Shown: positions 746 through 24,458 of the stretch, piece by piece
Layout: each line of letters begins with the position of its first letter
Position numbering within the stretch: position 1 is the stretch's first letter
Assembly (NCBI GenBank): GCA_022781925.1
Contig: JALESO010000070.1
Coordinates: 1-33,184 of the forward strand
From: Lachnospiraceae bacterium
GTDB lineage: Bacteria > Bacillota > Clostridia > Lachnospirales > Lachnospiraceae
Length of the DNA stretch: 33,184 bases
Direction: 5' to 3'
Program-made: the position numbers and the translations under genes
The notes under the pieces: generated by a model
What the model was told of the DNA's origin: nothing
Seen by the model: the letters and a program-made list of their open reading frames with translations, nothing else
Databases searched by the model: none

Positions 746-1990
746 ATGAATTTAGAAGAGTTAAAAGTAGTTGATGCAGACGTAGCAGCAGCGATCGAAG
801 CGGAGATGGACCGTCAGAACAGCCATATCGAGCTGATCGCATCCGAGAACTGGGTCAGTGACGCAGTCATGGAAGCACAGGGAAGCATCATGACAAATAA
901 ATATGCAGAAGGATATCCGGGAAAACGTTACTACGGCGGATGCCAGTGCGTTGATATCGTGGAGAATCTTGCCATTGAGCGTGCCAAAGAATTATTCGAC
1001 GCTGAGTATGTAAATGTACAGCCGCACTCCGGTGCACAGGCAAACATGGCAGTACAGTTTGCACTGCTTCAGCCGGGTGACACGGTGATGGGTATGAACC
1101 TGGATCACGGCGGACATCTGACACACGGAAGTCCGGTCAACTTTTCCGGTACTTATTTCCACATCGTACCTTACGGAGTAAACGACGAAGGCTTCATCGA
1201 TTATGACAAAGTAGAAGAGATTGCCATGGAATGCAAACCGAAGCTGATCATCGCCGGTGCGAGCGCTTATGCCAGAACCATTGATTTTCCGCGTTTCCGT
1301 GAGATCGCAGACAAATGCGGCGCATATCTGATGGTAGATATGGCACACATCGCAGGTCTGGTAGCAGCAGGACTTCATCCAAGCCCAATCCACTATGCAG
1401 ATGTAGTTACTACTACTACACACAAGACACTGCGTGGACCGAGAGGCGGCATGATCCTGGTTTCCAAAGAATCTATGGAGAAAAATAATTTCAACTTCAA
1501 TAAAGCTGTATTCCCTGGTATTCAGGGTGGACCGCTGATGCATGTCATCGCTGCCAAAGCCGTATGCTTCAAAGAAGCATTACAGGACAGCTTCAAGACC
1601 TATCAGCAGGGTATCGTAGATAACGCACAGACACTGTGCAAGGGACTGATGAGCCGCGGTATCAAAATCGTATCCGGCGGAACAGACAATCATCTGATGC
1701 TGGTTGACCTGACACCGTTTGAACTGACCGGAAAAGCTATCGAGAAACTTCTGGATGAGGCTCATATCACAGCCAACAAGAACACCATCCCGAATGATCC
1801 GAAATCTCCGTTTGTTACAAGTGGTATCCGTCTCGGAACACCGTCTGTCACATCCAGAGGAATGAATACAGAGGATATGGACAAGATCGCTGAGGCAATC
1901 TCCATCGTCATCAAAGAAGGCGAAGAGGGCGTAGCAAAAGCACGTGCCATCGTGGACGAGCTGACAGCGAAATATCCACTGAAAAAATAA
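746..1990 (+). CDS. glyA: Serine hydroxymethyltransferase
   Basis: PLP enzyme that interconverts serine plus tetrahydrofolate with glycine plus 5,10-methylene-THF, the main one-carbon source in the cytoplasm. Family signatures run the whole length: IELIASENW near residue 30, [14 protein letters not shown] near 55, [10 protein letters not shown] near 90, the [12 protein letters not shown] block near 195, and [14 protein letters not shown] with the Schiff-base lysine at K227. The 414-aa length is normal. AGGAGG at 732-737 lies eight bases from ATG 746, so I prefer that ATG to the GTG at 743. It has its own promoter and a likely terminator, so it is a housekeeping neighbour of the capsule locus rather than a part of it. 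Confidence is very high. Confidence 0.98.
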
Positions 1991-2021
1991 TCATTAAAAA
2001 TGACAACATTGTAGAGCAGAA

Positions 2022-2066
2022 AGAAACCCGTTGTATTGCATTTTGGAATATGACGGGTTTCTGTTT
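2022..2066 (+). terminator. Probable terminator after glyA
   Basis: AGAAACCCGT (2022-2031) is perfectly complementary to ACGGGTTTCT (2053-2062), a 10-bp stem with a 21-base loop. The trailing sequence is only GTTTGGG, so the T tract is weak; leaky termination or an RNA-stability hairpin is possible. The position, 30 bases after the glyA stop and before the capsule promoter, supports a terminator. Confidence 0.6.
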
Positions 2067-2084
2067 GGGTAAGCACACTATTTT

Positions 2085-2103
2085 CATGTAAATTCCATGT
2101 AAA
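2085..2103 (+). promoter_or_regulatory. Tandem CATGTAAA boxes upstream of capsule promoter
   Basis: CATGTAAA occurs at 2085-2092 and again at 2096-2103, a direct repeat with an 11-bp period, about one helical turn. It sits roughly 75-90 bases upstream of the -35 element at 2176. The spacing suits an activator that binds one face of the helix, but an 8-mer repeated twice in AT-rich DNA can occur by chance. Confidence 0.25.
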
Positions 2104-2129
2104 AGATAATGTGCATAAAAAACATTACA

Positions 2130-2147
2130 CAGTATTTGCAAATACTG
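2130..2147. promoter_or_regulatory. Perfect 18-bp palindrome, possible operator
   Basis: CAGTATTTGCAAATACTG is its own reverse complement over all 18 bases, in the 260-bp gap between glyA and the capsule operon and 28 bases upstream of the -35 box. Perfect dyads of this size near a promoter are typical of dimeric helix-turn-helix regulators. No matching regulator gene is in the window. Confidence 0.5.
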
Positions 2148-2175
2148 TTGAAAACAGAAGTAATTAATTTTTACG

Positions 2176-2204
2176 TTGACAAAAGATGGTATGAACGGTA
2201 TCAT
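2176..2204 (+). promoter_or_regulatory. Main promoter of the polysaccharide operon
   Basis: TTGACA (2176-2181, a perfect -35) is followed after exactly 17 bases by TATCAT (2199-2204). The predicted start near 2211 gives a leader of about 40 bases before the ATG at 2253, with AAGGAG at 2237-2242. This is the strongest promoter-like sequence in the window, and the genes from 2253 onward run co-directionally with small gaps. Confidence 0.75.
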
Positions 2205-2252
2205 TAAACTGTATGCATAAGAAAAAATAGGTGAAAAAGGAGCAAATGATAC

Positions 2253-2966
2253 ATGACTGGTTACTGGGATATACATAATCATATACTTCCAGGTGTGGAT
2301 GACGGTTCCGGCTGCATGAGTGAGACCATGCAGATGCTGCAGGAAGAGTATCAGCAGGGAGTACGTCATGTCGTATTTACACCACATTACCGTCGTGGTA
2401 TGTTTGCCATCCCGAGAGAAGAGATACAGATCGTTTACGAACGCGTGTGTGAAGCGGCCCGGGAACAGTTTGTGGATATGGAGTTTTATCTCGGGTGTGA
2501 GTATTACGTTCACAAAGAAGATACGGGTATTGTGTTAAATGATATAAGTTATCAAATGCCGGGTGCAAGGAGTGTACTGTTAGAATTCAGCTATGAAAAG
2601 CCGTTTCAAAGTATCTGTGAAGTAGTCAGAAAAACAGTACAGAGCGGTATGATACCAATTTTAGCGCACATAGAGAGATATGAATGTCTATGTGGAAACT
2701 TGAATAATGTTGCATCGCTTCGCAATGATGGTGCAAAGATACAGATTAATGCGGACAGCCTGCTTGGAAAACACGGATTCGGTATGAAACGATTTTGTAT
2801 GAAAGTGTTGAAGGAAGACATTGTCGATTTTATTGCCAGCGATGCGCATGATACTGTAAATCGAACGGTAAATATGAAAGCTGCAATTGAAGTGGTTCGA
2901 AAGAAATATGGCAGCGGAAAAGCTGAAAGTATTTTTGTGACAGGACCAGAACAATTGTTAAGATAA
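2253..2966 (+). CDS. cpsB: PHP-type protein-tyrosine phosphatase (CpsB/YwqE family)
   Basis: Metal-dependent phosphatase that removes phosphate from the tyrosine kinase CpsD and so sets the capsule assembly cycle. The PHP metal ligands are visible in order: DIHNHILPGVDDG at the N-terminus (H8 and H10), TPHY (H45), AHIERY (H139, E141) and SDAH (D197, H199). The 237-aa length fits Streptococcus CpsB and Bacillus YwqE. The start is supported by AAGGAG ten bases upstream of ATG 2253. It is the first gene of the locus, followed after 17 bases by its expected substrate kinase and then the adaptor. The order phosphatase-kinase-adaptor differs from the streptococcal cpsB-cpsC-cpsD order. Family assignment is confident; the in vivo substrate is inferred from context. 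Confidence 0.93.
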   Translation: MTGYWDIHNHILPGVDDGSGCMSETMQMLQEEYQQGVRHVVFTPHYRRGMFAIPREEIQIVYERVCEAAREQFVDMEFYLGCEYYVHKEDTGIVLNDISYQMPGARSVLLEFSYEKPFQSICEVVRKTVQSGMIPILAHIERYECLCGNLNNVASLRNDGAKIQINADSLLGKHGFGMKRFCMKVLKEDIVDFIASDAHDTVNRTVNMKAAIEVVRKKYGSGKAESIFVTGPEQLLR

Positions 2967-2983
2967 AGGAGAGGAATAGATAA

Positions 2984-3715
2984 ATGCAGGAATTGGTTTT
3001 GGAGGAAAAAATAACATTATCCCCCGTAATGAAAGAGATATATCGAAGACTTCGGACAAATCTGGAGTTCACCGGTATAGAAAATAAGGTAATCTGCCTG
3101 ACAAGTTGTATGGCAAATGATGGAAAATCCAGTGTATCATTCAATCTGGCAAAAATTCTGGCAGAAAATGATAAAAGAGTGCTGTATATTGATGCAGATA
3201 TGCGGAATTCCGTGTTGGCAAAGCGAACAGGAATTTCATCAAATTTAAAAGGTTTGAGTCATTATCTGGCAGGTAAAAATTCTGCGTCTGAGATTATATA
3301 CAGTACAAATTATAAGAATTTGTATTTGATACCAACAGGACGTTTCCCTAAAAATCCGACAGAATTGTTGAACAAAGAGTGTTATGAGGTACTGATCGAT
3401 GGTATGAAACAGACTTTTGACTATGTGATCATTGATACACCGCCTCTGGGTAGTGTGGTTGATGCGGCATTGATCGCAAAAACTGCCGATGCTTCAATTT
3501 TAGTTGTATCTGCAAATTCAGTCAGTCGAAGAGTTGTTAAAAATGTAAAAGAACAGCTGGTAAATGCAAATCCGAATTTCCTCGGAGTTATTTTAAATAA
3601 AGCAGATGAGGGAACAAAACGATATGGATATGGTTATGGTAAAAAATATGGTTATGGCTATGGTTACGGATATGGATATGGCTATGGAAGATATGGTCAT
3701 GACACAGAAGAATAA
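2984..3715 (+). CDS. cpsD: Bacterial tyrosine autokinase (CpsD/YwqD family)
   Basis: BY-kinase that autophosphorylates its tyrosine-rich tail and, through the membrane adaptor encoded next door, controls Wzy-dependent polymer length. The Walker A-type loop SCMANDGKS lies at residues 41-49, Walker A' LYIDADMR at 67-74 and Walker B YVIIDTPP at 147-154. The C-terminal tail (about 214-240) is an uninterrupted Tyr-Gly cluster with 11 tyrosines, split only by one Lys-Lys and one Arg, and is followed by HDTEE. The 243-aa length is normal for a kinase whose transmembrane part is a separate protein. A GGAGAGG ribosome site precedes ATG 2984. The tail is longer and more regular than the three or four tyrosines of pneumococcal CpsD. 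Confidence 0.95.
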   Translation: MQELVLEEKITLSPVMKEIYRRLRTNLEFTGIENKVICLTSCMANDGKSSVSFNLAKILAENDKRVLYIDADMRNSVLAKRTGISSNLKGLSHYLAGKNSASEIIYSTNYKNLYLIPTGRFPKNPTELLNKECYEVLIDGMKQTFDYVIIDTPPLGSVVDAALIAKTADASILVVSANSVSRRVVKNVKEQLVNANPNFLGVILNKADEGTKRYGYGYGKKYGYGYGYGYGYGYGRYGHDTEE

Positions 3716-3751
3716 AGAGATGCAATAAACAGACAAAGGAATAGAAAATAT

Positions 3752-4525
3752 ATGGAAAATAATAGTATAAGAGAAGAAAAGGAAATGGAAATAGACCTTG
3801 TCAGTCTCTTTTTCTACCTGATAAATAAGTGGAAAATATTGTTGCTAGGTGGAATTATCGGTGGTATATTGGCTGGAGCAATTGTGTTTTTCCAGACACC
3901 AATGTATGAATCAAATTCAACATTGTATGTACTGTCAAAGACAACAAGCATTACATCTATGGCTGATTTACAGCTTGGAACAGAATTGACATCAGATTTT
4001 ACGGTTATTGCCACCAGTAAACCAGTTATTGATGGAGCAATTGATGAATTAAAAACGAAGAAAAAAATAAAATTGACCCGTGAAGAAATACAGAGAATGC
4101 TTACGGTTGCTAATAAAACAGACACACGTATGCTGTCAATCACAGTTACAAGTGATGATGCAGAGCTGTCCTGCGCAGTGGCAGATGCGGTGACCGATGC
4201 CGCTGTTTCTCAGATGGCAAGTATTACACAGACGGATCCGCCAACAATTGTAGAACGCCCGGAAGTGGCTGATAAACCGGTAGATAATGGCCTAGTAAAA
4301 AAAGCGGCTTTAGGTGTTCTGCTTGGAATCGTTCTGCTTGGAATTATTCTTACCGTTCGTTATATGATGAATGATAAAATTCAGACAGAAGAAGATATTC
4401 AGACATATCTGGATGCAACAGTTCTTGGAATTATTCCGGTTGACAGAGAACTTGCTTATTACAGCAAACAGGAAGAAAAGACAGAAAAGAGCAGACATTC
4501 GCACAAAAAGAAAAAACATTCATAA
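3752..4525 (+). CDS. cpsC: Wzz/CpsC-like chain-length adaptor
   Basis: Membrane protein of the polysaccharide co-polymerase class; it activates the CpsD kinase and helps set chain length. The 257 aa contain a first membrane helix at about residues 27-47 (after EIDLVSLFFYLINKWK, typical of Wzz N-termini), an extracytoplasmic region of about 135 aa, the proline-containing ADKPVDNG segment before the second helix, and a second helix at about 183-206. The cytoplasmic tail is very basic and ends in a His/Lys stretch. AAAGGA lies 11 bases before ATG 3752. It directly follows cpsD, so kinase and activator are made together. No kinase domain is fused to it. Confidence 0.92.
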   Translation: MENNSIREEKEMEIDLVSLFFYLINKWKILLLGGIIGGILAGAIVFFQTPMYESNSTLYVLSKTTSITSMADLQLGTELTSDFTVIATSKPVIDGAIDELKTKKKIKLTREEIQRMLTVANKTDTRMLSITVTSDDAELSCAVADAVTDAAVSQMASITQTDPPTIVERPEVADKPVDNGLVKKAALGVLLGIVLLGIILTVRYMMNDKIQTEEDIQTYLDATVLGIIPVDRELAYYSKQEEKTEKSRHSHKKKKHS

Positions 4526-4558
4526 TGTATCGGATATCAAAGGAGATGAAATAAGAGC

Positions 4559-5329
4559 GTGAAGTTGAGAAAAGTATTATTTCGCATATTTCTTGCAGTT
4601 TTTATTGTAGCATTAGCCTGTATTATAGGAATATTGATACGTGATCATAAGCAGAATGTAAAAGATCAGAATCTGCGGGAAAAAGCAGCCGTGACATCTG
4701 AAAATGACACGGAAGTGTCTGCCGAGGCAGAAGAAGATACGACTGTGCAGATACCGGTTGATTTTGCAACATTGCAGGAAGAAAATCCTGACATTTATGC
4801 CTGGATCCGAATTGCAGACACACCGGTTGATTATCCGATATTGCAGAGCAAGATAGACGATGATTACTATATGACACATACTGTGGATGATAAAGAGGGA
4901 CTTCCAGGAGCTATTATGACAGAATACAGTTATAATCCGGATGCTTTTGAATCAGATGCAGTTACCGTGGTGTATGGTCATAATATGTTGAACGATTCCT
5001 TCTTCAGCAGACTGAAAGATTATCAGGACGAGACATTCCGAAATGAGCATTCATATATCGAGATCTACACACCGGAACATATTTATAAATACCGTGTATT
5101 TGCAGCAGTTACTTATGATAACAGACATATTTTGTATAATTATAATTGCAGGACAAAGGAAGGATATCAGGCATTTTTGGATTCACTGTCGGAAGTGCGT
5201 ATCATGCCGACTTGGATTGAGGATCCACTGCCGGTAACTACGGATGACAGGATGATCGTGTTATCTACCTGCAATGGTAATCATGACCAGCGTTTCCTGA
5301 TCTGCGCGGTCCTGACAGAGGAACAATAG
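4559..5329 (+). CDS. srtB: Class B sortase
   Basis: Membrane-anchored cysteine transpeptidase that cuts a sorting motif in secreted proteins and joins them to the cell wall. An N-terminal membrane helix (about residues 7-27) and an acidic linker precede the sortase barrel, which starts near the class-B-like TLQEENPDIYAWIRI. The catalytic residues are visible as H141 in VVYGHNM, C238 in LSTCNG and R245 in DQRFLI. The 256-aa length fits class B. The start is GTG 4559, since the ATG at 4546 opens a two-codon frame; AGGAG at 4541-4545 is 13 bases away, somewhat long. It sits between the kinase/adaptor genes and the LCP gene, and a protein with an SPKTG sorting signal lies two genes downstream, its probable substrate. 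Confidence 0.93.
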   Translation: MKLRKVLFRIFLAVFIVALACIIGILIRDHKQNVKDQNLREKAAVTSENDTEVSAEAEEDTTVQIPVDFATLQEENPDIYAWIRIADTPVDYPILQSKIDDDYYMTHTVDDKEGLPGAIMTEYSYNPDAFESDAVTVVYGHNMLNDSFFSRLKDYQDETFRNEHSYIEIYTPEHIYKYRVFAAVTYDNRHILYNYNCRTKEGYQAFLDSLSEVRIMPTWIEDPLPVTTDDRMIVLSTCNGNHDQRFLICAVLTEEQ

Positions 5330-5333
5330 TTTT

Positions 5334-6317
5334 ATGAAAAATGAACCGAAAAGACATGTTGTGTCCACCATTGTGGTTATAATAGCAGCTGTGGCAGCAG
5401 TGGTTGTTTTGTTTGTGCTGCATTACAGGCAACAGCAACAATTAGTCCGTGAACCGGAGGAATCTGTTTCACAGGCAGAAAGTAATACCATTGAATGGAA
5501 AGGGAAAAAATATACATATAACAATAATCTGATTAATATTCTGTTTCTCGGAATTGATAAAGATTTGGATTTAGATACCAGTTATATGCCGAGCGATGCC
5601 GGACAGGCAGACTGCATTATGCTTTTGTCACTGGATAAAGAGACAAAGGAAGGAAGAATCCTTCAGATTAACCGAAATACGATGACACAAATTGACACTT
5701 ATGATTCAAATGGAAGCGTTTTCGGTACGGTAAATGCACAGCTTGCAACGCAGTATGCTTATTGTATCGGCGGAAGCCGCAGTTGCTGGGCAACAGAAAA
5801 GACAGTCAGAGAATTACTTTATAATTTACCGATCAACGGATATTTTTCTTTATCCGTTGATGGAATAGCACAGATCAACGATGCACTTGGCGGAGTGACC
5901 GTAGAAATGACAGAGGATGATACAGAAATCAATCTGGAATTTCAGGCTGGTCAGGAAATCTGTCTGAAAGGCGAAGATGCTGAAAAATATGTACGTTACC
6001 GTGATACGAGTGTATTTAACAGTAATGAAAAACGTATGCAGCGTCAGGTGAAATATGTGACAGCGTTGATAAAAAATGCCAGATCTCATGGAGGGAGTGC
6101 CCTGTACAATATTATTTCTCCGTTTTTGGACAAATACATTGTGACAGATTTGGACGGGAAGCAGATCGATGCTCTTAGCAGTTATACCTATCTCACAGAT
6201 GAGATACAGTATTTGCCGGGAGAGACCGTAATGGGGGATAAGTATGAAGAATTTCATGTGGACGAAGAGAAGCTGCAGGAAGAGATTATACAGACCTACT
6301 ACAAGGAAAAACAATAA
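5334..6317 (+). CDS. LytR-CpsA-Psr (LCP) family glycopolymer transferase
   Basis: LCP enzymes move undecaprenyl-pyrophosphate-linked polymers, such as capsule, onto peptidoglycan outside the membrane. A single N-terminal membrane helix (about residues 11-29) precedes the LCP domain, which shows NILFLGIDKD, GQADCIMLLSLD, the Arg motif INRNTM (R114), the YFSLSVDGIAQINDALGGV core and YVRYRD (R221, R223, D224). The 327-aa length is normal. The start lies four bases after the sortase stop, so translation is probably coupled. An oddity is Asn at position 115 where the family usually has Asp (R-D-T). Linkage of this polysaccharide to the wall is the natural role in this context, inferred from family and position. 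Confidence 0.93.
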   Translation: MKNEPKRHVVSTIVVIIAAVAAVVVLFVLHYRQQQQLVREPEESVSQAESNTIEWKGKKYTYNNNLINILFLGIDKDLDLDTSYMPSDAGQADCIMLLSLDKETKEGRILQINRNTMTQIDTYDSNGSVFGTVNAQLATQYAYCIGGSRSCWATEKTVRELLYNLPINGYFSLSVDGIAQINDALGGVTVEMTEDDTEINLEFQAGQEICLKGEDAEKYVRYRDTSVFNSNEKRMQRQVKYVTALIKNARSHGGSALYNIISPFLDKYIVTDLDGKQIDALSSYTYLTDEIQYLPGETVMGDKYEEFHVDEEKLQEEIIQTYYKEKQ

Positions 6318-6397
6318 CCGGCATCAATGAGGAAGCTGTAAATACAGTGTGACGTATGTTACGCTGTTTTACAAATATATACGAAGGGAGAAAAACC

Positions 6398-7012
6398 ATG
6401 AAGAAAATTGTTGCTTTATTAATGACCGCTGTAATGACAATCGGTATGGCAACCGTTGCGTTTGCTGCACCAAGCCCACAGCCATCAACAGGTAACATTG
6501 TTGCTGCAAAAGATGCAAATGGACAGGATGTAGATTTATCCAAAGTAACTACATCTGATAATTTTACACCTGCTGATCAGCCGGGAGTGGATGCAATCAA
6601 ATCAAATCCGCAGAATGTGCTGAAAGATGCAGTAGGTGCTCCAAATGCAAATGGCTATGGTCTTGCATATGTAACTAACATTACAGCTGACGATGATGTT
6701 CAGTTCCCATTGACACTGACATTCAAAGTGGATGGCGTTACCAGCACAAGCAAAGTTCTTGTACTTCGCTATGTAAATGGCAAGTGGGTACCGATCGATG
6801 CAATTGTTGGCGAGGGAACAGTAACAGTAACTGTTGACGGTCCTTCACCGATTGCAATTTATGTATTAAATGCAAATGCAGCAAATGGAACAGACAGCTC
6901 AAAAGTTGTCTCTCCAAAAACTGGTAGTGCACCAGTTATGATGTGCTTTGTAGCAGTAGCAGCGGCTGCGGTAGCTGGAATGTGTGTAACATCCAGAAGA
7001 AAACATGCTTAA
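6398..7012 (+). CDS. Small secreted protein with SPKTG sortase B sorting signal
   Basis: The 204-aa precursor starts at ATG 6398, with AAGGGAG at 6384-6390; the in-frame ATG at 6356 has no such site. A signal peptide ends near VAFA-AP (residue 23). The mature part has a Pro/Ser linker, a region without a recognised fold, then a beta-rich segment with VNGKWVPIDAIVGEG and GPSPIAIYV, a pattern shared with many secreted Gram-positive proteins. The C-terminus is a full sorting signal: SPKTG, a hydrophobic stretch rich in Ala and Val, and the basic tail SRRKHA. Clostridial sortase B enzymes (for example in C. difficile) are known to use (S/P)PxTG, so the class B sortase two genes upstream is the likely partner. 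It is the only protein with a sorting signal in the window. Its role in capsule assembly or anchoring is inferred. Confidence 0.87.
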   Translation: MKKIVALLMTAVMTIGMATVAFAAPSPQPSTGNIVAAKDANGQDVDLSKVTTSDNFTPADQPGVDAIKSNPQNVLKDAVGAPNANGYGLAYVTNITADDDVQFPLTLTFKVDGVTSTSKVLVLRYVNGKWVPIDAIVGEGTVTVTVDGPSPIAIYVLNANAANGTDSSKVVSPKTGSAPVMMCFVAVAAAAVAGMCVTSRRKHA

Positions 7013-7068
7013 TCAATTTTGATTAAGTGAGGTATCAGAAGAATCCTGCTTGCAGGATTCTTCTGATA
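7008..7068 (+). terminator. Tandem hairpins after SPKTG gene
   Basis: The first hairpin is CTTAATCAA-TT-TTGATTAAG (7008-7027), which overlaps the stop codon. The second is a perfect 17-bp inverted repeat, 7033-7049 with 7052-7068, separated by only two bases. No T tract follows, so this is not a textbook intrinsic terminator. It could stall polymerase, protect the upstream mRNA or act as a bidirectional stop. It separates the regulatory/anchoring genes from the assembly genes. No convincing promoter is visible in the 120 bases that follow. Confidence 0.5.
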
Positions 7069-7191
7069 TGTATGAAAATGCAAAAGAGAAATGTAGGATT
7101 ATATACGGGACAGGAAAACAAACATGAACACCTTAAATAAAAAGGTATTATATGTATCTTTGTTTTTTTGCCACAGGGAGATAACAAGAAC

Positions 7192-8535
7192 ATGAAAAAA
7201 ATTCCACTTTTGGCAGTAAAGGTAATAAATATACTACTTATGTTAGTTCCTTTTATCCTGTGCTGGATATTATATTATGAGAGAAGAACATCAACGGTTG
7301 GTTCGAAACAGGTTAGTGTACTGGTAATAGGAACCTTTATCGTATTATGTTATTATTTTGAACAGAAACTGGATTGCTTTCGAATTGCAATCCTCCGTAT
7401 TCGAGATATTATTATGGGACATATACTGGCACTGATGATCACAGATGCCATTATATATATATTGATCTGGATGTTATCTATCCATTTACCAAACCCGGTG
7501 CCGGGACTTTGTGCATGGCTGGTACAGTGTGGAATTAGTTTTTTCTGGACATTAGGTATGCATAAGAACTATTTTAGAACACATAAGCCGCTGAAAACGG
7601 TAGTGGTTTATGATGAAAGGGAAGGCATGGATTTACTGATCCATGCATATGGACTGGAAAAGAGATTTGAGATTACGTCAGTATATCACGTGGACGAAGT
7701 GATAGAACATTGGGATATACTGCATGACATAGAAGTTGTATTTTTGTGTGGAATACATTCGGGACAAAGAAATAAAATATTAAAATATTGTACATCTGAA
7801 AATATTCAGCTTTTTATGATTCCGAGAGTTGCTGATGTCATGATGCAGGGATCAGAACAGATGCATATGCTTCATCTACCAATTGTGAAAACAGAAAGAT
7901 ACAATCCGTTGACGGAGTATCTGATCGTAAAAAGGTTGATGGACGTTGCCGTGTCATTGTTGGCATTGCTTATTTTATCCCCGGTCTTTTTGATCGTGGC
8001 AATCGCAGTGAAAAGTGATGGAGGACCGGCATTTTACAAACAGAAAAGGCTGACGAAAGATGGCAAGGTGTTTGAAATCGTCAAGTTCCGAAGCATGAGA
8101 GTAGATGCTGAAAAATATAGTGGAGCGGTACTTTCAGCTGGAGAAGATGATCCGAGGATCACAAAAGTGGGACGGATCATCCGTATGTGCAGACTGGACG
8201 AAATACCACAGTTTATTAATATATTAAAAGGTGATATGAGTCTGGTGGGACCACGGCCGGAACGTCCGGAGCTGCAGGAAAAGATCGAAAAAGAATTACC
8301 TGAATTCAGACTGAGACTGCAGGCAAAAGCCGGATTGACAGGTTACGCACAGGTATATGGAAAATATAATACTACATTTTATGATAAATTACTTATGGAT
8401 CTGATGTATATCGCAAAACCAAGTTTGCTGGAAGATCTTACGATTATGCTGGCAACAGTACGAATTCTGATGAACAAAGAGAGCACAGAAGGAGTAGGCG
8501 AATGCGAGAAAACGCTGGAATTGAGAAAACTGTAA
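7192..8535 (+). CDS. Polyprenyl glycosylphosphotransferase (initiating sugar transferase)
   Basis: Transfers a sugar-1-phosphate from a UDP-sugar to undecaprenyl phosphate, the first step of repeat-unit assembly. The N-terminal half has about four hydrophobic helices and a Rossmann-like middle region, as in CpsE/WbaP. The C-terminal catalytic domain (from about residue 240) has the membrane re-entrant helix LMDVAVSLLALLILSPVFL, FYKQKRLTKDG, VKFRSMRVDAE, DEIPQF (D336) and GDMSLVGPRPERPE near 345-357. The start is placed at ATG 7192 with AGGGAG at 7175-7180; an in-frame TTG at 7168 lies upstream of that site. This gives 447 aa, normal for the family. The first sugar cannot be read from the sequence. 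UDP-FucNAc or a related sugar made by this locus would be a candidate, but Glc or Gal are equally possible. Confidence 0.93.
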   Translation: MKKIPLLAVKVINILLMLVPFILCWILYYERRTSTVGSKQVSVLVIGTFIVLCYYFEQKLDCFRIAILRIRDIIMGHILALMITDAIIYILIWMLSIHLPNPVPGLCAWLVQCGISFFWTLGMHKNYFRTHKPLKTVVVYDEREGMDLLIHAYGLEKRFEITSVYHVDEVIEHWDILHDIEVVFLCGIHSGQRNKILKYCTSENIQLFMIPRVADVMMQGSEQMHMLHLPIVKTERYNPLTEYLIVKRLMDVAVSLLALLILSPVFLIVAIAVKSDGGPAFYKQKRLTKDGKVFEIVKFRSMRVDAEKYSGAVLSAGEDDPRITKVGRIIRMCRLDEIPQFINILKGDMSLVGPRPERPELQEKIEKELPEFRLRLQAKAGLTGYAQVYGKYNTTFYDKLLMDLMYIAKPSLLEDLTIMLATVRILMNKESTEGVGECEKTLELRKL

Positions 8536-8573
8536 GTGCAAAGACTGTATGAGTCCGGGAGAGGTTTTAGATA

Positions 8574-9317
8574 ATGGTTTCAATTGTAATGCCGGCATAT
8601 AATTGTGAAAAATTTATAGGAAAAGCGATAAAAAGCGTACAGGATCAGACCTGGACAGAGTGGGAACTGATAATTATTGATGACTGTTCGACAGATCATA
8701 CATATGATACAGCTGATACTTATGCGCAAAAAGATGCACGGATACGATTACTTCGACAGGAGCAAAACAGTGGTGTTGCCTGTGCGAGAAACCGTGGCAT
8801 TCAGGAAGCAAAAGGTGATATGATCGCTTTTTTGGACTGTGATGATGCGTGGGTGTCAGCAAAGCTGGAGAAACAATTAGAATTGCAGCGTGAAACCGGA
8901 GCAGAGATTATATATTGTTCCTATGATTTTATAAATGAGAATGACGAAACGATTCGAAAGCCATTTATTGTGCCAGGTATCACAAATTATGATAAAATGC
9001 TGGCCAGCAGCGTGATCAGCTGTTCTACCGCATTGATTAAAACATCTTTGTTAAAAAAACATTTATTTCAACCGGAGTATTACCATGAAGATTATGTATT
9101 GTGGATGGAATTGTTAGCAATTCCGGTCCGCGCAGTTGGAAATCGTGAGGTTCTGGCTCATTACAGACAACTTTCAGGTTCACGTTCTAATAATAAAAAG
9201 AATGCAGCAAAACAACGTTGGTTTGTCTATCGAAATGTGCTGCATCTTGGGATGATCAAGAGTTTAAATGCCTTTGCAAAATATGCTTTATTAGGAATGA
9301 TAAAATATGTCTTGTAG
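8574..9317 (+). CDS. Glycosyltransferase family 2
   Basis: Inverting GT-A enzyme that adds one sugar to the lipid-linked repeat unit at the inner membrane face. It opens with VSIVMPAYNCEKFIGKAI; IIIDDCSTDHT gives the nucleotide-binding Asp pair, FLDCDDAW gives the DxD-type metal site, and HEDYVLWMELL supplies the ED motif with the probable catalytic base. The short C-terminal part (247 aa in total) resembles TuaG-type transferases. A GGGAGAGG stretch lies upstream of ATG 8574. Donor and linkage are unknown. It is the second gene of the assembly block, 38 bases after the initiating transferase. Confidence 0.92.
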   Translation: MVSIVMPAYNCEKFIGKAIKSVQDQTWTEWELIIIDDCSTDHTYDTADTYAQKDARIRLLRQEQNSGVACARNRGIQEAKGDMIAFLDCDDAWVSAKLEKQLELQRETGAEIIYCSYDFINENDETIRKPFIVPGITNYDKMLASSVISCSTALIKTSLLKKHLFQPEYYHEDYVLWMELLAIPVRAVGNREVLAHYRQLSGSRSNNKKNAAKQRWFVYRNVLHLGMIKSLNAFAKYALLGMIKYVL

Positions 9318-9347
9318 AGTGTCGCAAAATGAAAGGGTTTACAGTAA

Positions 9348-10667
9348 ATGAAAGTATTAGTTGTGAGCCAGCCGGTTTTCAGCAACACAAATAATATGGG
9401 GAAAACATTAAAGGGATATTTTTCATGTTTTCAGCCTTCAGAAATAGCACAATTATATTTGAGAAACGGTATTCCAACGGAGTTGTCCAGTTGTGAAAAC
9501 TACTATCGTTTTTCAGATGAAGATGCTTTGAAGTCAATCCTGAATCGAAGAATACATGGAAAACGGTTTGATAAAGAAAATATAACGCTTGCAAAAGATA
9601 TAGATAAAAACAGGAAAGCTGCATCAGACTTACAGCCAGAAGGAATGGTTTATAAAATGAAAAGTAAACATAAAGCATGGATGTTGCTGTTACGTGATAT
9701 GATGCATGATCTAAGTAATTGGAAGAATGAAGATCTTCTGATCTGGGTCAGGGAAATGAATCCGGATATTATTTTTTTTGCAGCGGGTGATTCAGCATTT
9801 TCTTATAAGATAACAGATTATATCGCAAGAAAAATGAAAAAACCACTTGTTGTTGGATGTATGGATGATTTTTATATTAATAATCAGAATAAAAATGATT
9901 TTCTTGGGCGATTCAGACAAAATCAGTTTATGAAAGTTGTAAAAAAGACGATGGAAGATGCAGACGCACTTTTTACAATTTGCGATTCTATGAACCGGGT
10001 ATATCATCAGATGTTTCAACGAAAATGTTATACACTGCATACACCTGCTGTAAAGAGAGAAATTATTCTGGATGAAAAGGCACATCAGATTTCCTATATT
10101 GGAAATGTGGGATGTGGAAGAGTTCAGTCATTACTTGAAATCGGACAGGCTTTATCAGAAGTGAATTCAGAAGAACTGCCGGGCTATGTCGATGTATATT
10201 CAGGAACAAAACAGCCGGAATATATCGAAAAATTAAGGCAGGCACCTGGAATCAGATTTCATGGGGCTATTTCACCGGAACAGGTATTGGAAGTAATGGG
10301 GCACAGCATGGCAGTGATCCATACAGAGTCGTTTGATACGAATATGATGGAACGGGTGAGATTTTCTGTTTCAACAAAGATTGCAGAATCTTTAATGTAT
10401 GGTCCGTGTTTACTGGCTTATGGACCGAAAGGTATAGCATCCATAGATTATCTGAAAGAAAATCATGCAGCGTATGTGATATCGTCCCGACAGAAATTAA
10501 AACAGGGCTTGCAAGAACTTTTGGGAAATGCAAAGTTACGAAATGAGATTTTAAAAAATGCACGTGTTCTGGCGGAAAAGAATCATGATGGAGAGAAGAA
10601 TCCGGGAAATGTACGAAAATGGTTATCTGAGATAGCTGCTCAGAGGATAGTGTCAAATGACCTATGA
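9348..10667 (+). CDS. Glycosyltransferase, GT-B fold (GT4-like)
   Basis: This 439-aa protein starts MKVLVVSQPVFS, with a first strand typical of GT-B enzymes, and continues with a divergent acceptor domain. The C-terminal half has ISYIGNVGCGR, a possible donor-site loop, IRFHGAISPEQVLEVMGHSM, and KIAESLMYGPCLLAYGPKG, which matches the end of the usual E-x7-E donor-binding region in degenerate form (E at the start of AESLMYG). It has no signal peptide or membrane helix, so it is cytoplasmic. AAAGGG precedes ATG 9348. The N-terminal 200 residues resemble no subfamily I know, so donor and acceptor are open. Its place among the other transferases supports a role in building the repeat unit. Confidence 0.75.
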   Translation: MKVLVVSQPVFSNTNNMGKTLKGYFSCFQPSEIAQLYLRNGIPTELSSCENYYRFSDEDALKSILNRRIHGKRFDKENITLAKDIDKNRKAASDLQPEGMVYKMKSKHKAWMLLLRDMMHDLSNWKNEDLLIWVREMNPDIIFFAAGDSAFSYKITDYIARKMKKPLVVGCMDDFYINNQNKNDFLGRFRQNQFMKVVKKTMEDADALFTICDSMNRVYHQMFQRKCYTLHTPAVKREIILDEKAHQISYIGNVGCGRVQSLLEIGQALSEVNSEELPGYVDVYSGTKQPEYIEKLRQAPGIRFHGAISPEQVLEVMGHSMAVIHTESFDTNMMERVRFSVSTKIAESLMYGPCLLAYGPKGIASIDYLKENHAAYVISSRQKLKQGLQELLGNAKLRNEILKNARVLAEKNHDGEKNPGNVRKWLSEIAAQRIVSNDL

Positions 10668-17240: not shown

Positions 17241-18116
17241 ATGAGGAGAGAGGTACGAAAGAAAGAAACACTGCGTGCACATCAGAATGTAATGAACCAG
17301 ATGCTGCAGGTGATTGATGAAATCTGTCGAAAACATAATATCTCTTATCTGCTTTTTGCAGGGACGGCACTTGGTGCGGTACGGCATCATGGATTTATTC
17401 CCTGGGACGATGATCTGGATATTGTAATGCTCCGGCCGGAGTATGAACGTTTCCTGAAGATTGCCCCTAAGGAACTTGATCCTGAGCTATATTATTTACA
17501 GGGAGAATTTTCAGCACACTGGCCGAATTTTTTCTCAAAACTGCGAAAAAATAATACAGCATGTATCGAACGTTATATTCCAAAAGATGAAAAAGTGCAT
17601 CAGGGAGTATATGTGGATATTTTTCCATGTGATAATCTGTCGGATTACAAGCTGAAGCGTGGGCTGCAATTTGCCGCATCTAAAGTGGTGATTGCTCATT
17701 CGTTAGGCGAGAGAGGATATCTGACACATAATCCGGTCAAAAAGGTTATGCTTGCTGTCAGCAGATGCTTTCCACAGAAAGTTATGCTGAGATTTGCACA
17801 GGATCGCAAAGAAAGTGACAGCAGAAATGTACATACATTTTTTGCAGCAGCATCGAAATATAAGAAAAATGTATTCCCAAGAGAATGGTTTGAACAGACG
17901 ACAGAAATAGAATTTGAAGGTCGGACTTATCCGGTATCAGCGTTTTATGATGAGATGCTGACACGGATATATGGAGATTACATGGTGCTTCCGCCTGAAA
18001 GTGAGAGAACTTGCAAAGTGCATGCAGATATTGTGGACCTGGAACATTCTTATGAAAATTATATTGGAATCCAGAAACACATGAAGATAGATGAATATAC
18101 CAGAAGCATACGATAG
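17241..18116 (+). CDS. licD: LicD-family phosphotransferase
   Basis: LicD proteins transfer a phospho-group, phosphocholine in the best known cases, from a nucleotide donor to a sugar of a cell-surface glycan. The diagnostic block is clear: LLFAGTALGAVRHHGFIPW followed by DDDLDIVMLRPEYERF (residues 38-70), with the Asp cluster at 56-58 and 60 for metal and phosphate chemistry. YVDIFPCDNL near residue 128 and the FEGRTYPV...DEMLTRIYGDYMVLPP end are also family features. The 291-aa length is normal. It starts four bases after the fnlA stop, so it is coupled to sugar synthesis. No choline kinase (LicA), cytidylyltransferase (LicC) or choline importer is in the window, so the donor could be CDP-choline, CDP-ribitol or CDP-glycerol, or another alcohol phosphate. 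The transferred group is unknown. Confidence 0.9.
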   Translation: MRREVRKKETLRAHQNVMNQMLQVIDEICRKHNISYLLFAGTALGAVRHHGFIPWDDDLDIVMLRPEYERFLKIAPKELDPELYYLQGEFSAHWPNFFSKLRKNNTACIERYIPKDEKVHQGVYVDIFPCDNLSDYKLKRGLQFAASKVVIAHSLGERGYLTHNPVKKVMLAVSRCFPQKVMLRFAQDRKESDSRNVHTFFAAASKYKKNVFPREWFEQTTEIEFEGRTYPVSAFYDEMLTRIYGDYMVLPPESERTCKVHADIVDLEHSYENYIGIQKHMKIDEYTRSIR

Positions 18117-18148
18117 TAGCTGTAAAAAAGTATGCAGGGAGAGTTTTA

Positions 18149-18649
18149 ATGAAGAAAAAATGGATTTATTGCCTGTTAAGTATCGCAGTTGTTGGAAGTT
18201 TACTGACAGGATGCGGTAATGGACAGCAGACAGAACAGAAAAATGACAAAAGTGTTGTAGAAGTATCTTCGGATGAAGAGGATTCTGCAGATGCAGAAGA
18301 ATCTGAGAAGGCAGATACGATGGAAATTGAGACAGAATATGGAACGCTGTATTATCCGGAACAATGGAAAGATTCAGTGGAAGTTGAGCAGACGGAAAAG
18401 GATGATACATTACATGTTGCGTTTCAGGTAAAAATTGATGAGAAAAATTATACTTTATTTGAAATAATAATTGGTAAAGGAGATGGTGAGCCTGTTGGAA
18501 CAATACAGGATGCAGATGGAAAAATGCACGATGTATATGTGAATACAGAAGAAAAGGAAGATTTGAAGAATTTGAGTGAGGAAGAACAGAATCGGTTTTA
18601 TGCAATGAAAGAAGGTATAAATCAGGTACTGGATCATCTAACAAACTAA
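18149..18649 (+). CDS. Small lipoprotein of unknown function
   Basis: A 166-aa protein with a lipoprotein signal: MKKKW, a hydrophobic core and lipobox LLTGC, with the acylated cysteine at residue 22. A low-complexity acidic linker of about 40 residues rich in Glu, Asp and Ser follows, then a folded part of about 105 residues starting ETEYGTLYYPEQWKDSV. I do not recognise a named family for the folded part; the YGTLYYPEQW phrase occurs in small clostridial lipoproteins. A GGGAG site precedes ATG 18149. It lies 32 bases after licD and 12 bases before the phosphodiester glycosidase gene, so it is probably membrane-tethered and co-expressed with that secreted enzyme. Function is unknown. Confidence 0.8.
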   Translation: MKKKWIYCLLSIAVVGSLLTGCGNGQQTEQKNDKSVVEVSSDEEDSADAEESEKADTMEIETEYGTLYYPEQWKDSVEVEQTEKDDTLHVAFQVKIDEKNYTLFEIIIGKGDGEPVGTIQDADGKMHDVYVNTEEKEDLKNLSEEEQNRFYAMKEGINQVLDHLTN

Positions 18650-18661
18650 GGAGGCAAGAGA

Positions 18662-21600
18662 ATGAAAAAGAGTTACAGAAGGTGGATCGCCGGTGTGCTG
18701 GCTGCATCCATGGTTCTGGGTATGGGAGCCCCGGCGGTATCCTATGCACAGGAACTGTCAGCCGGTCAGACAGATGCGGCGGAAAACCTGCTGGATGAAT
18801 CTGAGGTACAGGATCAGGATGCAAGTCTTACGGATGATGCAAGTAATGAGAATGCGGATACTCAGATTCAGAGCGAGAGTGAGGAAACAGGAAAAGTAAC
18901 AGATTACAATACGTTTCTGTCAGATCTGAAAATCCTGGAATCCTATGCGGAAACTTATGCAAAAGAGCATAAGGGTGAGAACGCAACAGAACTGGTACTG
19001 AACTATATTCGTACTGGTGTGGAAAAGTATACAGATGGAAACTGGAACCTGCTGGCAGGTGAAGAAAAAACGGCTTTCGTATCTTATGTGGCAACACAGG
19101 ATGAAGCAAATGGAACATCTGTGGCAGATCTGAGAAATCTGGAAGAGTTTACAATTCCAAATGGACAGACCGTAGAGTTCGGTCACATGTTTGGATGTAT
19201 GAATATTACATACTACATGAAAAAAACAAACGCAAGTGCAGCAACTATTTATGCTGACCTGAGCGGATGGGGTGGAGACATCTGTGATCTGATGTCTTAT
19301 ACAAAAGGCAAAGTCAGCGGTGATGTGGAAACAATGGCTGCTGATATTCAGAAAAATTATCTGGGTGTAGATGATCCGTCCACACATACTTTTGGACAGC
19401 TGGATATTTACGGAGATCTGGATGCTTTCTATATTATGAATAATATTTCAGAAAGCAAATCCATCAGTGCTGTAATGAAAGATTACTATAATAAAAATCT
19501 TACAGATAAAGCAAGAGCGAAATATTTTGTTCAGAACAGATTCCCAGGTAGCGGAACAAAAGATGAGATCAGAGATGCTATGTACCGTGCATATTCTACC
19601 AATGATATGCTGAGCAATCTGGAAAGCAGCCGAGGTCTTGGCGCAGATGATGCTGATCTGAGAACTGCTTGCAGCTATGCTTTTGCTGATTATCTGGCAG
19701 AACTGACCGGTGTGATCACTGACAAAGAGAGCAATGATTATTATACTGTATTCTCCAGTGAATCATCTACTCTGGCACCGGGTGTGACACAGCAGATCAA
19801 GCAGGCAACAACAGCTGATAACAAACAAATTGTATATTATGTTGCAACAGCAGATGTAGGACGCAGTGATATCAATATCTATGCGAACTATAAGGACAAT
19901 GAAGGAACGACAACAGCATGGGGCATGCAGCGTGTAACAGATCAGATGGCTGCTGCACAGAAGAAACATTCAAATCCGGAGGATAAAGAGAATTATATCG
20001 CAAATTACAATACAATTCTTGGTGTAAACGGTGACTTCTATAATATGAGTACCGGTGAGCCGACCAGTGCACTGATCATGGAAGGAAAGACATATCATGG
20101 TCTGGGTGGATATGGTACATTCTTTGGAATTTTAAAAGATGGAACACCGATCATCGGTGGACAGTTTGAATGGAATGAGTACAAAGATGAGCTGCAGGAA
20201 GCAATCGGTGGAAATACATGGCTTGTAAAAGATGGAAAATCCGCAGTGACAACGACAGATAAATCACGTATGCCAAGAACCTGTATCGGTCTGACAGCAG
20301 ACAATAAAGTTGTTATGGTAGTGCTGGATGGTAGACAGGAGCCGATTTCCGCAGGCGGAAGCATGGCGGAGTTAGCACAGATCATGCTGGATGCTGGCTG
20401 TGTAGTTGCAGTCAACCTGGATGGCGGCGGTTCTACAACCATGGCAGCAAAGAGCGAGGGAAGCGATGAAGTATCTGTTGTAAACAGACCTTCTGATGGA
20501 TATGAGCGTTCTGTAAGTTCTTCTCTTCTGGTTGTTTCTACTGCAAAATCTTCCACTGAGTTTGATCATGCATTAGTTACAACTGAAGAGGATTATCTGA
20601 CCGTAGGTACTTCTCTTGATGTATCTGTAACAGGTGTAAGTGCTACCGGAAATGCAGCAGATATCCCGAAGGATGCAAAACTGGTTGTATCCGATGAAAA
20701 TGTCGGAACATTGGATAACAATGTGTTTACAGCAACAGCGACTGGTGATGTTACCTTAAAACTGATGTCCGGTGATGAGGTACTTGGAAGCAAGACACTT
20801 CATGTAGTTGTTCCGGATAAAATCAGCTTTTCAAGCGAAAATGTGAATGCAGTTTACGGTGTTCCATATAAAATGCCTGTTCAGGCATTTTACAAGGGAA
20901 GTCCAGTAGCTATTAATGAAAAAGATGTTATTTTTGGCTTTATTGAAGATGGACAGCCTGTGTTTGAAAGTAAAGCCGGAGTATTCAGCGGATTCGAGTT
21001 TACAGGTGACGAAAGTTCCGGAATCCGTGTTGTAAAATCAGGTGCGATTTTAAATAATGGCAAAGCCATGAATGAGCTGACTTCAGATGAAATGGCATTT
21101 GTCACGATTAACCTTTATAAAAAGGATGAAGCGGTATTCGATTTTGACCATGTGACTGGTGGAAATCGTTCACTGGCATGGGTAAGAACTGTATCCAATT
21201 CTAAAACTGCAGATGAAAAAACATATTACATAGAAGATCCAAAGCAGGATATGGAAGGCAATTATACTTTTGCAGTAGATATGTCTACGATTGAGATTCC
21301 GGAGAAATTAAAACCGATGATCAGTCTTCTTCCGGGTGGCGATGATGCATCAGCGACAGCCTGGGGATTCTTAATGCAGCTGGCAGAGAGAGTCAGCACT
21401 TTAACAAATGTGCAGGTAAGTCTGAAAGTAAGTGATGGATTTGATATTGATGCTTCTAATCTGAAAGCAGTAAATGAATATTTTGAACTGACAAAGACAG
21501 AGTATGATAAAGATAATCATACTTTAAATCTGACGCTGAATTTTAAAAAGCAGTCTCAGGCAATTGACGAAGCGACTGCAAATCCAATTTGTATTTTGAG

Positions 21601-23764: not shown

Positions 23765-23768
23765 AAAA

Positions 23769-24458
23769 ATGAATATAGTGACTGAATGGATGATAAGTCA
23801 TGCACTGCTGCTGTTACTGTCAGCAGGTACAGTATTTAATGTGATATGGCTTACAACATTTAGAAACAGATTACAGATGAAAATGGGAGCAGTATTGATT
23901 GTATCAATACTGCATACCGTTTTCGGAGTAATGGCTGTAAGGTTATTCGCATTTGCAGAGGGTGGATTTGACAGCAGTAAGGCAGGGAATATGAGTTTGT
24001 TTGGTGGCGTTTTCCTCATGCCAATAGCATATTGGCTGGGAGCCAAGCTCACGAAACGTTCTATGAAAGAAGTATATGACCTGTTGACGATTTGTATGGT
24101 ATTCACACTTATGTGTGCAAGAATTAACTGTATCATAAGTGGATGCTGCAAAGGCATGTTGATTCCAGGACAGCAGATGCGGTGGCCAACAAGGGAAGCT
24201 GAGATTATCTTTTATATTATTTTACTGTTTTTATTGGGAAAAAGAGTAAAAAGGGACGAGATGTGTGGACAGACATATCCTATCTATATGATGTCATATG
24301 GAATATTTCGTTTTATCATAGAAGGTTTTCGGTTTCACGAGGATACTTCCTTGATTCATCCGGCTCATATCTGGGCATTGCTCTCATTTGGAGTTGGATT
24401 TAGTATATATGCTGAATTGCAAAAGAAAAACAAGAAGGGAATGAGTAAGAAAAAATGA
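23769..24458 (+). CDS. Lgt-like membrane protein (divergent prolipoprotein diacylglyceryl transferase family)
   Basis: A 229-aa integral membrane protein with about seven hydrophobic helices and the overall Lgt layout. The segment CARINCIISGCCKG sits where Lgt has its Arg-Gly-Asn signature, and YPIYMMSYGIFRFIIEGFR matches the conserved YGxxRFxxExxR near the C-terminus, followed by HPAHIWALLSF. Compared with true Lgt (from memory), the His-Gly-Gly-Leu loop with the essential His reads SLFGGVF here, and the Glu after the Arg motif is replaced within GCCKG. It belongs to the 'CCxG' branch found in Firmicutes. The start is ATG 23769 with GGAG seven bases away, five bases after the glycosidase gene, and it overlaps the next gene by four bases. 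True housekeeping Lgt function is doubtful; a role in modifying one of the flanking surface products is inferred. Confidence 0.78.
   Translation: MNIVTEWMISHALLLLLSAGTVFNVIWLTTFRNRLQMKMGAVLIVSILHTVFGVMAVRLFAFAEGGFDSSKAGNMSLFGGVFLMPIAYWLGAKLTKRSMKEVYDLLTICMVFTLMCARINCIISGCCKGMLIPGQQMRWPTREAEIIFYIILLFLLGKRVKRDEMCGQTYPIYMMSYGIFRFIIEGFRFHEDTSLIHPAHIWALLSFGVGFSIYAELQKKNKKGMSKKK

Follow-up and report, generated by a model that had tools for sequence, protein, structure and literature searches.

The 33,184-nucleotide (nt) stretch analyzed here, hereafter the window, is contig JALESO010000070.1 (C61 in our numbering) of a 2.93-Mb Lachnospiraceae bacterium genome (GCA_022781925.1) that is 91% complete, and it carries a capsule locus in which the genes for a class B sortase (SrtB), an LCP transferase, and a small secreted protein with a C-terminal SPKTG motif lie side by side. 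This triad recurs in related bacteria beyond chance, and the best explanation is that its three genes form one attachment machine. We propose, with a probability of about 0.6, that the LCP enzyme ligates the capsule polymer to the small protein, probably at Ser26, and that the sortase ties this conjugate to the wall, such that the capsule would be held through a protein or a peptide.

Recurrence of the sortase, LCP, and linker genes

The initial annotation of the window described a class B sortase and a 204-amino-acid (aa) SPKTG protein flanking the LCP gene, between the BY-kinase module and a sugar transferase. These open reading frames (ORFs) were confirmed, as were the catalytic sortase residues H141, C238, and R245, which were read directly and are all invariant in an alignment of nine sequences. 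The sortase matches PF04203 (E = 4e-12) and scores 145.8 bits with TIGR03064 (class B sortase; E = 1.2e-42), which is under the cut-off of 153.75 for that model; the profile of its clade matches 15 solved sequences, SrtBs among these, with E values from 8.9e-42 to 2.1e-32. The small protein has a signal peptide, the C-terminal SPKTG, a hydrophobic stretch, and a basic tail, as a sortase substrate should; its body is a β-sandwich, and no Pfam family scored above its cut-off in this protein.

We read 81 stretches (five from the source genome), 79 named loci, which were chosen by their sortase alone as the best 80 of 591 relatives, and 20 lower-scoring sortase controls; stretches L028-L042 and L152-L161 had been chosen because of the small protein. 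These gave 141 distinct clade sortases scoring >200 bits, 94 of them with full flanks (at least 3.5 kb on each side) and 47 with short flanks. Among the full-flank sortases, 74 have both an LCP gene and a small protein gene nearby, six have the LCP only, three have the small protein only, and 11 have neither. Together with 32 of the 47 short-flank sortases, this makes 106 complete triads, among which all six possible gene orders occur (55, 34, 8, 5, 3, and 1 times), while the gaps between triad genes have a median of 29 nt and are at most 150 nt in 202 of 212 cases. Neighbors that persist while their order shifts point to a functional unit rather than to one operon passed down by descent alone. 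When only the set chosen by sortase is counted (the best 80 of 591), an LCP gene on the same strand lies within 2.5 kb of 42 of the 45 full-flank sortases, and 40 of the 45 have both partners; among the lower-scoring SrtB controls, three of 20 have an LCP gene, and the same three have a small protein. Small proteins also stand beside an LCP gene without a sortase, at L032, L039, L153, and L155. Three contigs (L201, L222, and L121) carry two triads each, in opposite directions, the second LCP gene of L121 being cut by the contig end.

The source genome has eight sortases by PF04203. Near the seven others lie sorting-signal proteins with LPxTG, TPxTG, PPVTG, or MPFTG motifs, or none, and no LCP gene was found in the stretches examined around these seven, three of which are SrtBs. 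The only strong match of the small gene in this genome is itself, and the window protein has the only SPKTG sorting signal found in this 91%-complete assembly: among four DNA matches to two codon patterns for SPKTG, that of the window alone is C-terminal with a tail. Across the family, the small protein was detected in 13 of 150 genomes by a sequence search (E ≤ 1e-5) and in 43 of 397 by a profile search (E ≤ 1e-12), the source genome being included in both counts.

In a FastTree phylogeny of 165 sortases with a midpoint root, for which the tool flags long branches, one side of the root (147 rows) holds 123 LCP-linked, 18 unlinked, and six contig-edge sortases; the other side holds 18 sortases, among them the three other SrtBs of the source genome, and none is LCP-linked. 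The LCP-linkage label needs about 14 to 18 changes on this tree, which indicates that gains or losses occur. At two loci (L168, 2395-2904; L169, 9988-10497), close relatives of the window sortase lie between CpsB and a small protein, which presumably resembles a NusG-type antiterminator; no LCP gene or linker was seen there.

CpsB, Wzz, or a BY-kinase is found in the stretch for 53 of the 106 complete triads and not for the other 53, although some stretches are short. Conversely, CpsB is present in 60 of 100 family genomes, and the best 28 CpsB places comprise six with a complete triad, one with an LCP and a small protein but no sortase, one with a small protein alone, and 20 with no triad (four of these 20 stretches are 9 kb or shorter). 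Among these 20, L278 has another SrtB beside CpsB, and L275 has a weak, 18-bit small-protein match. Capsule operons are therefore of two kinds, with and without the module, and a sortase-substrate pair specific to capsules is too narrow a description, given both the triads that lack these genes in their stretch and the 20 CpsB loci that lack a triad. The initial annotation would have counted independence from capsule genes in most genomes against itself; such independence is seen for about half, and the link to LCP remains. Its pairing of sortase and substrate stands insofar as the two appear to belong together, and to a step of glycan attachment, but their constant companion is the LCP gene and not the capsule operon.

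Residues of the LCP transferases and the two ends of the linkers

The window LCP lies above both curated cut-offs (78.2 vs. 24.6 bits for PF03816; 69.9 vs. 62.3 bits for TIGR00350). Triad LCPs were collected with a profile built from 11 LCPs beside small proteins, on which they were required to score >100 bits; no ordinary LCP from this bacterial family scores more than 83 bits on the same profile. The pyrophosphate-site residues R114, R223, R234, and D93 are kept in all 117 triad LCPs and in all 31 ordinary LCPs. Two further positions separate the groups: in 117 of 117 triad LCPs, (i) the K/R of K-x-N/T is replaced by Q, H, or E, and (ii) the D of D-x-x-R is replaced by N, A, S, or V, so that none has either residue, whereas 31 of 31 ordinary LCPs have both. 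The window LCP has Q136 and N231 here and hence lacks the residues expected of a peptidoglycan ligase of the LcpA/TagT type. S. aureus LcpA and B. subtilis TagT and TagV belong to the same family and share its catalytic arginines, but they have peptidoglycan acceptors and keep the K and D positions, which for TagT and TagV were read in alignments to an ordinary LCP. In a review, the potential peptidoglycan saccharide sites of S. aureus LcpA are placed near R99, K135, N137, and D224 (PMC7831098), K135 and D224 being matched to our positions through the K-x-N and D-x-x-R motifs and not by direct alignment. The initial annotation took the LCP to be an ordinary one, a view to be revised: judged from their sequences, the partner LCPs appear to form a subfamily of their own, with the residues for catalysis kept and two residues near proposed peptidoglycan sites changed. 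A Q-x-x-Q-Y motif was discarded as a mark of this subfamily, as 19 of the 117 have it. Triad LCPs at L109, L111, L112, L125, L127, L138, L231, and L237 have ∼480 to 590 aa; that of the window has 327.

At the four loci with an LCP and a small protein but no sortase, the LCP has likewise lost both residues, which indicates that the LCP type tracks the small protein and not the sortase; the LCP of L177 lacks them too. In L177, which belongs to a Eubacteriales genome assembled from a metagenome, one 570-aa frame (8764-10476) encodes a sortase (residues 95-291) joined to an LCP (296-566), and both domains score above the Pfam cut-off and keep their catalytic motifs, and an SPKTG linker comes directly after; this is a single case and could be an assembly error. 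The fused frame also rules out counting L177 among the loci with an LCP and a linker but no sortase, a class that thus has four members and not five.

The linker set comprises 107 distinct small proteins beside a sortase and an LCP, of which 87 pass a strict signal-peptide rule; the strict control consisted of 43 further secreted proteins encoded at these loci. Serine occupies position +3 of the predicted mature protein in 63 of 87 linkers vs. seven of 43 controls, and Ser-Pro falls within the first seven mature residues in 57 of 87 vs. two of 43 (one of these two, upstream of the sortase at L223, is probably itself the linker). The serine frequency is 0.72 at +3, with the next highest, 0.32, at +5 and values mostly about 0.1 elsewhere, and proline reaches 0.54 at +4. 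Under a looser signal-peptide rule, 67 of 107 linkers have Ser-Pro in the first ten residues, and when the set is reduced to 44 clusters with a body identity under 35%, 31 of the 44 keep Ser at +3. An earlier control of 82 secreted proteins, one with Ser-Pro, was contaminated with membrane proteins and was replaced by the strict set. By eye, the small proteins of the four sortase-less loci all have Ser at +3, as does the linker of the L177 fusion; none of five small proteins beside a sortase for which no LCP was seen has it, one of these lying at a contig end and two being large, unlike proteins. At the other end, the motif is readable in 102 linkers, as SPxTG in 53 and APxTG in 16, the rest being scattered and including some false matches. 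The bodies between these ends vary from the β-sandwich of the window to other bodies or none, and the shortest processed linkers (L216, L111, L117, and L239, with L227 of the same kind) have ∼23 to 32 mature residues and no domain. At L213, L217, L219, L230, L237, and L243, where the order is linker, sortase, LCP, the linkers have another kind of body, which in our estimation partly resembles the Listeria-Bacteroides repeat.

Twenty-four distinct linkers stop one to two residues past xPKTG, at a stop codon and with no in-frame membrane stretch. They lie at L108, L110, L113, L115, L120-L122, L124, L126, L128, L189, L201, L205, L207, L209, L214, L222, L229, and L232-L234. Frameshift or read-through artefacts were rejected as their source, all 24 ending at the same place in several lineages; in their other frames, no hydrophobic tail was seen by eye beside the motif, and mildly hydrophobic runs occur further on in some (e.g., L128). 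On the sortase tree, the tail-less trait needs six changes, fewer than in any of 500 shuffles, by an automatic count of 25 that includes two doubtful rows (L239 and L244); six changes imply that the trait was gained or lost more than once.

A proposed route of capsule attachment and its alternatives

In the route that we propose, loss of the signal peptide on secretion would leave the small protein with A-P-S26-P at its N-terminus; the LCP enzyme would then move the finished, polyprenyl-pyrophosphate-linked capsule polymer onto it, most likely at Ser26; the class B sortase would cut SPKT|G and join the small protein to the stem peptide of peptidoglycan; and a linker, be it a protein or a peptide, would thereby connect the capsule to the wall. 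Three elements of this route are inferred: the processing of SPKTG by this sortase, the glycosylation of the small protein by the LCP, and the role of Ser26 as acceptor.

Known systems offer parallels. C. difficile SrtB, which like the window enzyme is a clostridial sortase with a motif of the SPxTG type, is said, after work by van Leeuwen in 2014, to sort (S/P)PxTG; we know of no LCP partner or capsule link for it. In A. oris, LcpA glycosylates the wall protein GspA, whose gene adjoins its own, before a sortase anchors GspA (PMC6381275). The two systems share an LCP gene beside that of a sorting-signal protein; unlike the window sortase, the A. oris enzyme is the housekeeping SrtA, and in the part of that paper covered here SrtA is not described as belonging to the gene pair, the glycans and sites of GspA are not known and no capsule role is reported.

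In M. gnavus ATCC 29149, mutants of srtB4 and of the LCP gene in the srtB4 capsule cluster (RGna_12030-12060) both lose the capsule (PMC13121745, March 2026). In the passages of that paper covered here, its authors consider the sortase unlikely to make the capsule itself and note candidates for its targets encoded close to sortase genes (supplementary Fig. S4b), and no substrate is tested and no linker or LCP subfamily is proposed. As in the window, a class B sortase gene adjoins an LCP gene (12035 and 12040), and a BY-phosphatase gene (12055) lies in the locus; unlike in the window, the locus tags put the LCP ahead of the sortase. M. glycyrrhizinilyticus (L183) has the order CpsB, Wzz, BY-kinase, LCP, sortase, linker, which the M. 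gnavus tag order (phosphatase 12055, LCP 12040, sortase 12035, end 12030) fits, so that RGna_12030 would be the expected linker. Given the A. oris pathway, the M. gnavus mutants, the altered LCP residues, the fused frame, and the ends that recur in the linkers, the simplest account is that the LCP ligates the capsule to the linker and the sortase attaches the linker to the wall.

Several points weigh against this account. No linker has been seen to carry a glycan; of the 87 linkers under the strict rule, 24 have a residue other than Ser at +3, and 14 lack Ser anywhere from +2 to +4; and the 24 tail-less linkers are not predicted by the ordinary sortase pathway. The sequences are related, so the counts are not independent, and the LCP grouping is partly one by construction, since collecting triad LCPs with a >100-bit profile favors uniformity. 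In a second sortase-ranked set (L101-L151), which omits the best sortases already taken and shares some sequences with the best-80 set, the 40 full-flank sortases include just 26 with both partners, 30 with an LCP, and 10 without one. Housekeeping genes adjoin some triads. Moreover, in pneumococcal Cps2A, D371, at the D224 position, stabilizes the active-site arginines (PMC7831098), and loss of the residue at this position therefore need not mean a new acceptor.

In an alternative that we consider unlikely but worth serious attention, the LCP attaches the capsule directly to peptidoglycan as usual, and the sortase has the separate task of anchoring a small protein, structural or binding, that holds or organizes the capsule noncovalently. 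The linkers of ∼23 to 32 residues without a domain leave little room for such a binding role, an adhesin or lectin being hardly possible at this size and a linker possible; of the two roles that the initial annotation offered for the small protein, a base for the polysaccharide is judged better than one fixed alongside it. The trio might, improbably, make a glycoprotein layer apart from the capsule, with the LCP carrying another glycan and the position in the capsule operon reflecting co-regulation. Next to triads that lack capsule regulators, ten flanking proteins comprise four from glycan genes (one Wzy_C and three GT4), five that are housekeeping or unrelated, and one without a family, a mixture that such a layer would accommodate, but the loss of capsule in the M. 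gnavus srtB4 and LCP mutants (PMC13121745) speaks against it. Slightly more improbable still is a small protein that acts as a wall-side regulator or sensor of BY-kinase and Wzz, placed by the sortase, whose loss would block the capsule indirectly: half of the triads do lie near CpsB, BY-kinase, or Wzz, yet the other half keep the LCP with none of these in the stretch, and small proteins also occur beside an LCP without a sortase.

For ligation to a wall-anchored linker, a fuller version can be drawn, which we rate at somewhat less than even odds. A dedicated LCP subfamily would join the capsule to a Ser three residues from the linker N-terminus, the linker being in the extreme case a peptide of ∼23 to 32 residues; a dedicated class B sortase, once fused to the LCP, would tie the other end to peptidoglycan; the bodies between would be free to vary or vanish; and several lineages would have lost the membrane tail, a loss perhaps permitted by the lipid-linked polymer, which would itself keep the conjugate at the membrane.

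Taken one by one, ligation by LCP enzymes, anchoring by sortases, the glycosylation of a wall protein by an LCP, and a capsule sortase are already known. As far as our literature search reaches, the novelty lies in the recurrent trio of genes, the LCP subfamily and the pair of residues changed in it, the fusion of sortase and LCP, the linkers reduced to little more than their two ends, and those without a tail; this search, which covered papers without their supplements, returned no description of an SrtB-LCP-linker unit or of tail-less natural sortase substrates. The module called undescribed in the initial annotation keeps that standing as a recurrent unit, but a capsule-locus srtB beside an LCP gene, and needed for the capsule, is published for M. 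gnavus (PMC13121745).

The capsule locus of the window and its significance

The locus runs from a promoter-like site through cpsB, the BY-kinase gene, wzz, and the sortase, LCP, and small SPKTG genes to the polyprenyl glycosylphosphotransferase and glycosyltransferases (Table 1), with 4 nt between sortase and LCP genes and 80 nt between the LCP and small SPKTG genes. The promoter-like site is the best of 23 such sites in 1990-9000, a number not above chance (shuffle mean, 24.6), and the mechanical ORF of the small protein begins at 6356 (218 aa).

Table 1. Features of the capsule locus in the window
Feature	Position	Strand	Remarks
Promoter-like site before cpsB (TTGACA, 17 nt, TATCAT)	2176..2204	+	11/12 matches
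CpsB/CapC tyrosine phosphatase	2253..2966	+	PF19567, E = 2.9e-74
BY-kinase (tyrosine autokinase), Tyr/Gly-rich tail	2984..3715	+	TIGR01007, 200.9 bits vs. cut-off 108.05
Wzz/CpsC chain-length protein	3752..4525	+	PF02706, E = 1.2e-12
Class B sortase, LCP-linked clade	4559..5329	+	GTG start, 256 aa
LCP transferase, linker-associated subfamily	5334..6317	+	327 aa; D93, R114, R223, R234 kept; Q136 and N231 replace K/R and D
Small secreted SPKTG protein, proposed glycan-carrying wall linker	6398..7012	+	204 aa
Predicted mature N-terminus APSP, residues 24-27	6467..6478	+	Ser26 = mature +3, putative glycan acceptor
SPKTG sorting motif, residues 172-176	6911..6925	+	
RNA stem-loop without T-run, between linker gene and sugar transferase	7032..7069	+	17 bp; -28 kcal/mol for 7012-7082, z = -5.08
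Polyprenyl glycosylphosphotransferase	7192..8535	+	PF02397, E = 1.5e-62

The C-terminus of the BY-kinase (3620-3700) is a long Gly-Tyr repeat (YGYGYG...), an unusually regular tyrosine tail. The stem-loop directly 3′ of the linker gene could keep linker mRNA above that of the downstream synthesis genes. Further downstream, the same locus encodes LicD (17241-18116) and, on either side of an LGT-like gene, two giant secreted proteins whose choline-binding repeats are weak; the first (18662-23764) also has an NAGPA phosphodiester glycosidase domain, and the second (24455-28558) a Listeria-Bacteroides repeat. The LicD gene and these two proteins (17241-28558) suggest a phosphocholine-type decoration with its own binding proteins.

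A capsule hung on a peptide would, if our inference holds, be a categorically new step. It offers a mechanism for the published but unexplained need of a sortase for capsule display in M. gnavus (PMC13121745), a gut symbiont that is more abundant in inflammatory bowel disease. If the proposal is true, the capsules of many Lachnospiraceae and of some other Clostridia would be protein- or peptide-linked, two residues may be enough to tell which acceptor an LCP enzyme chooses, and the linker would represent a natural means of coupling a polysaccharide to a peptide.

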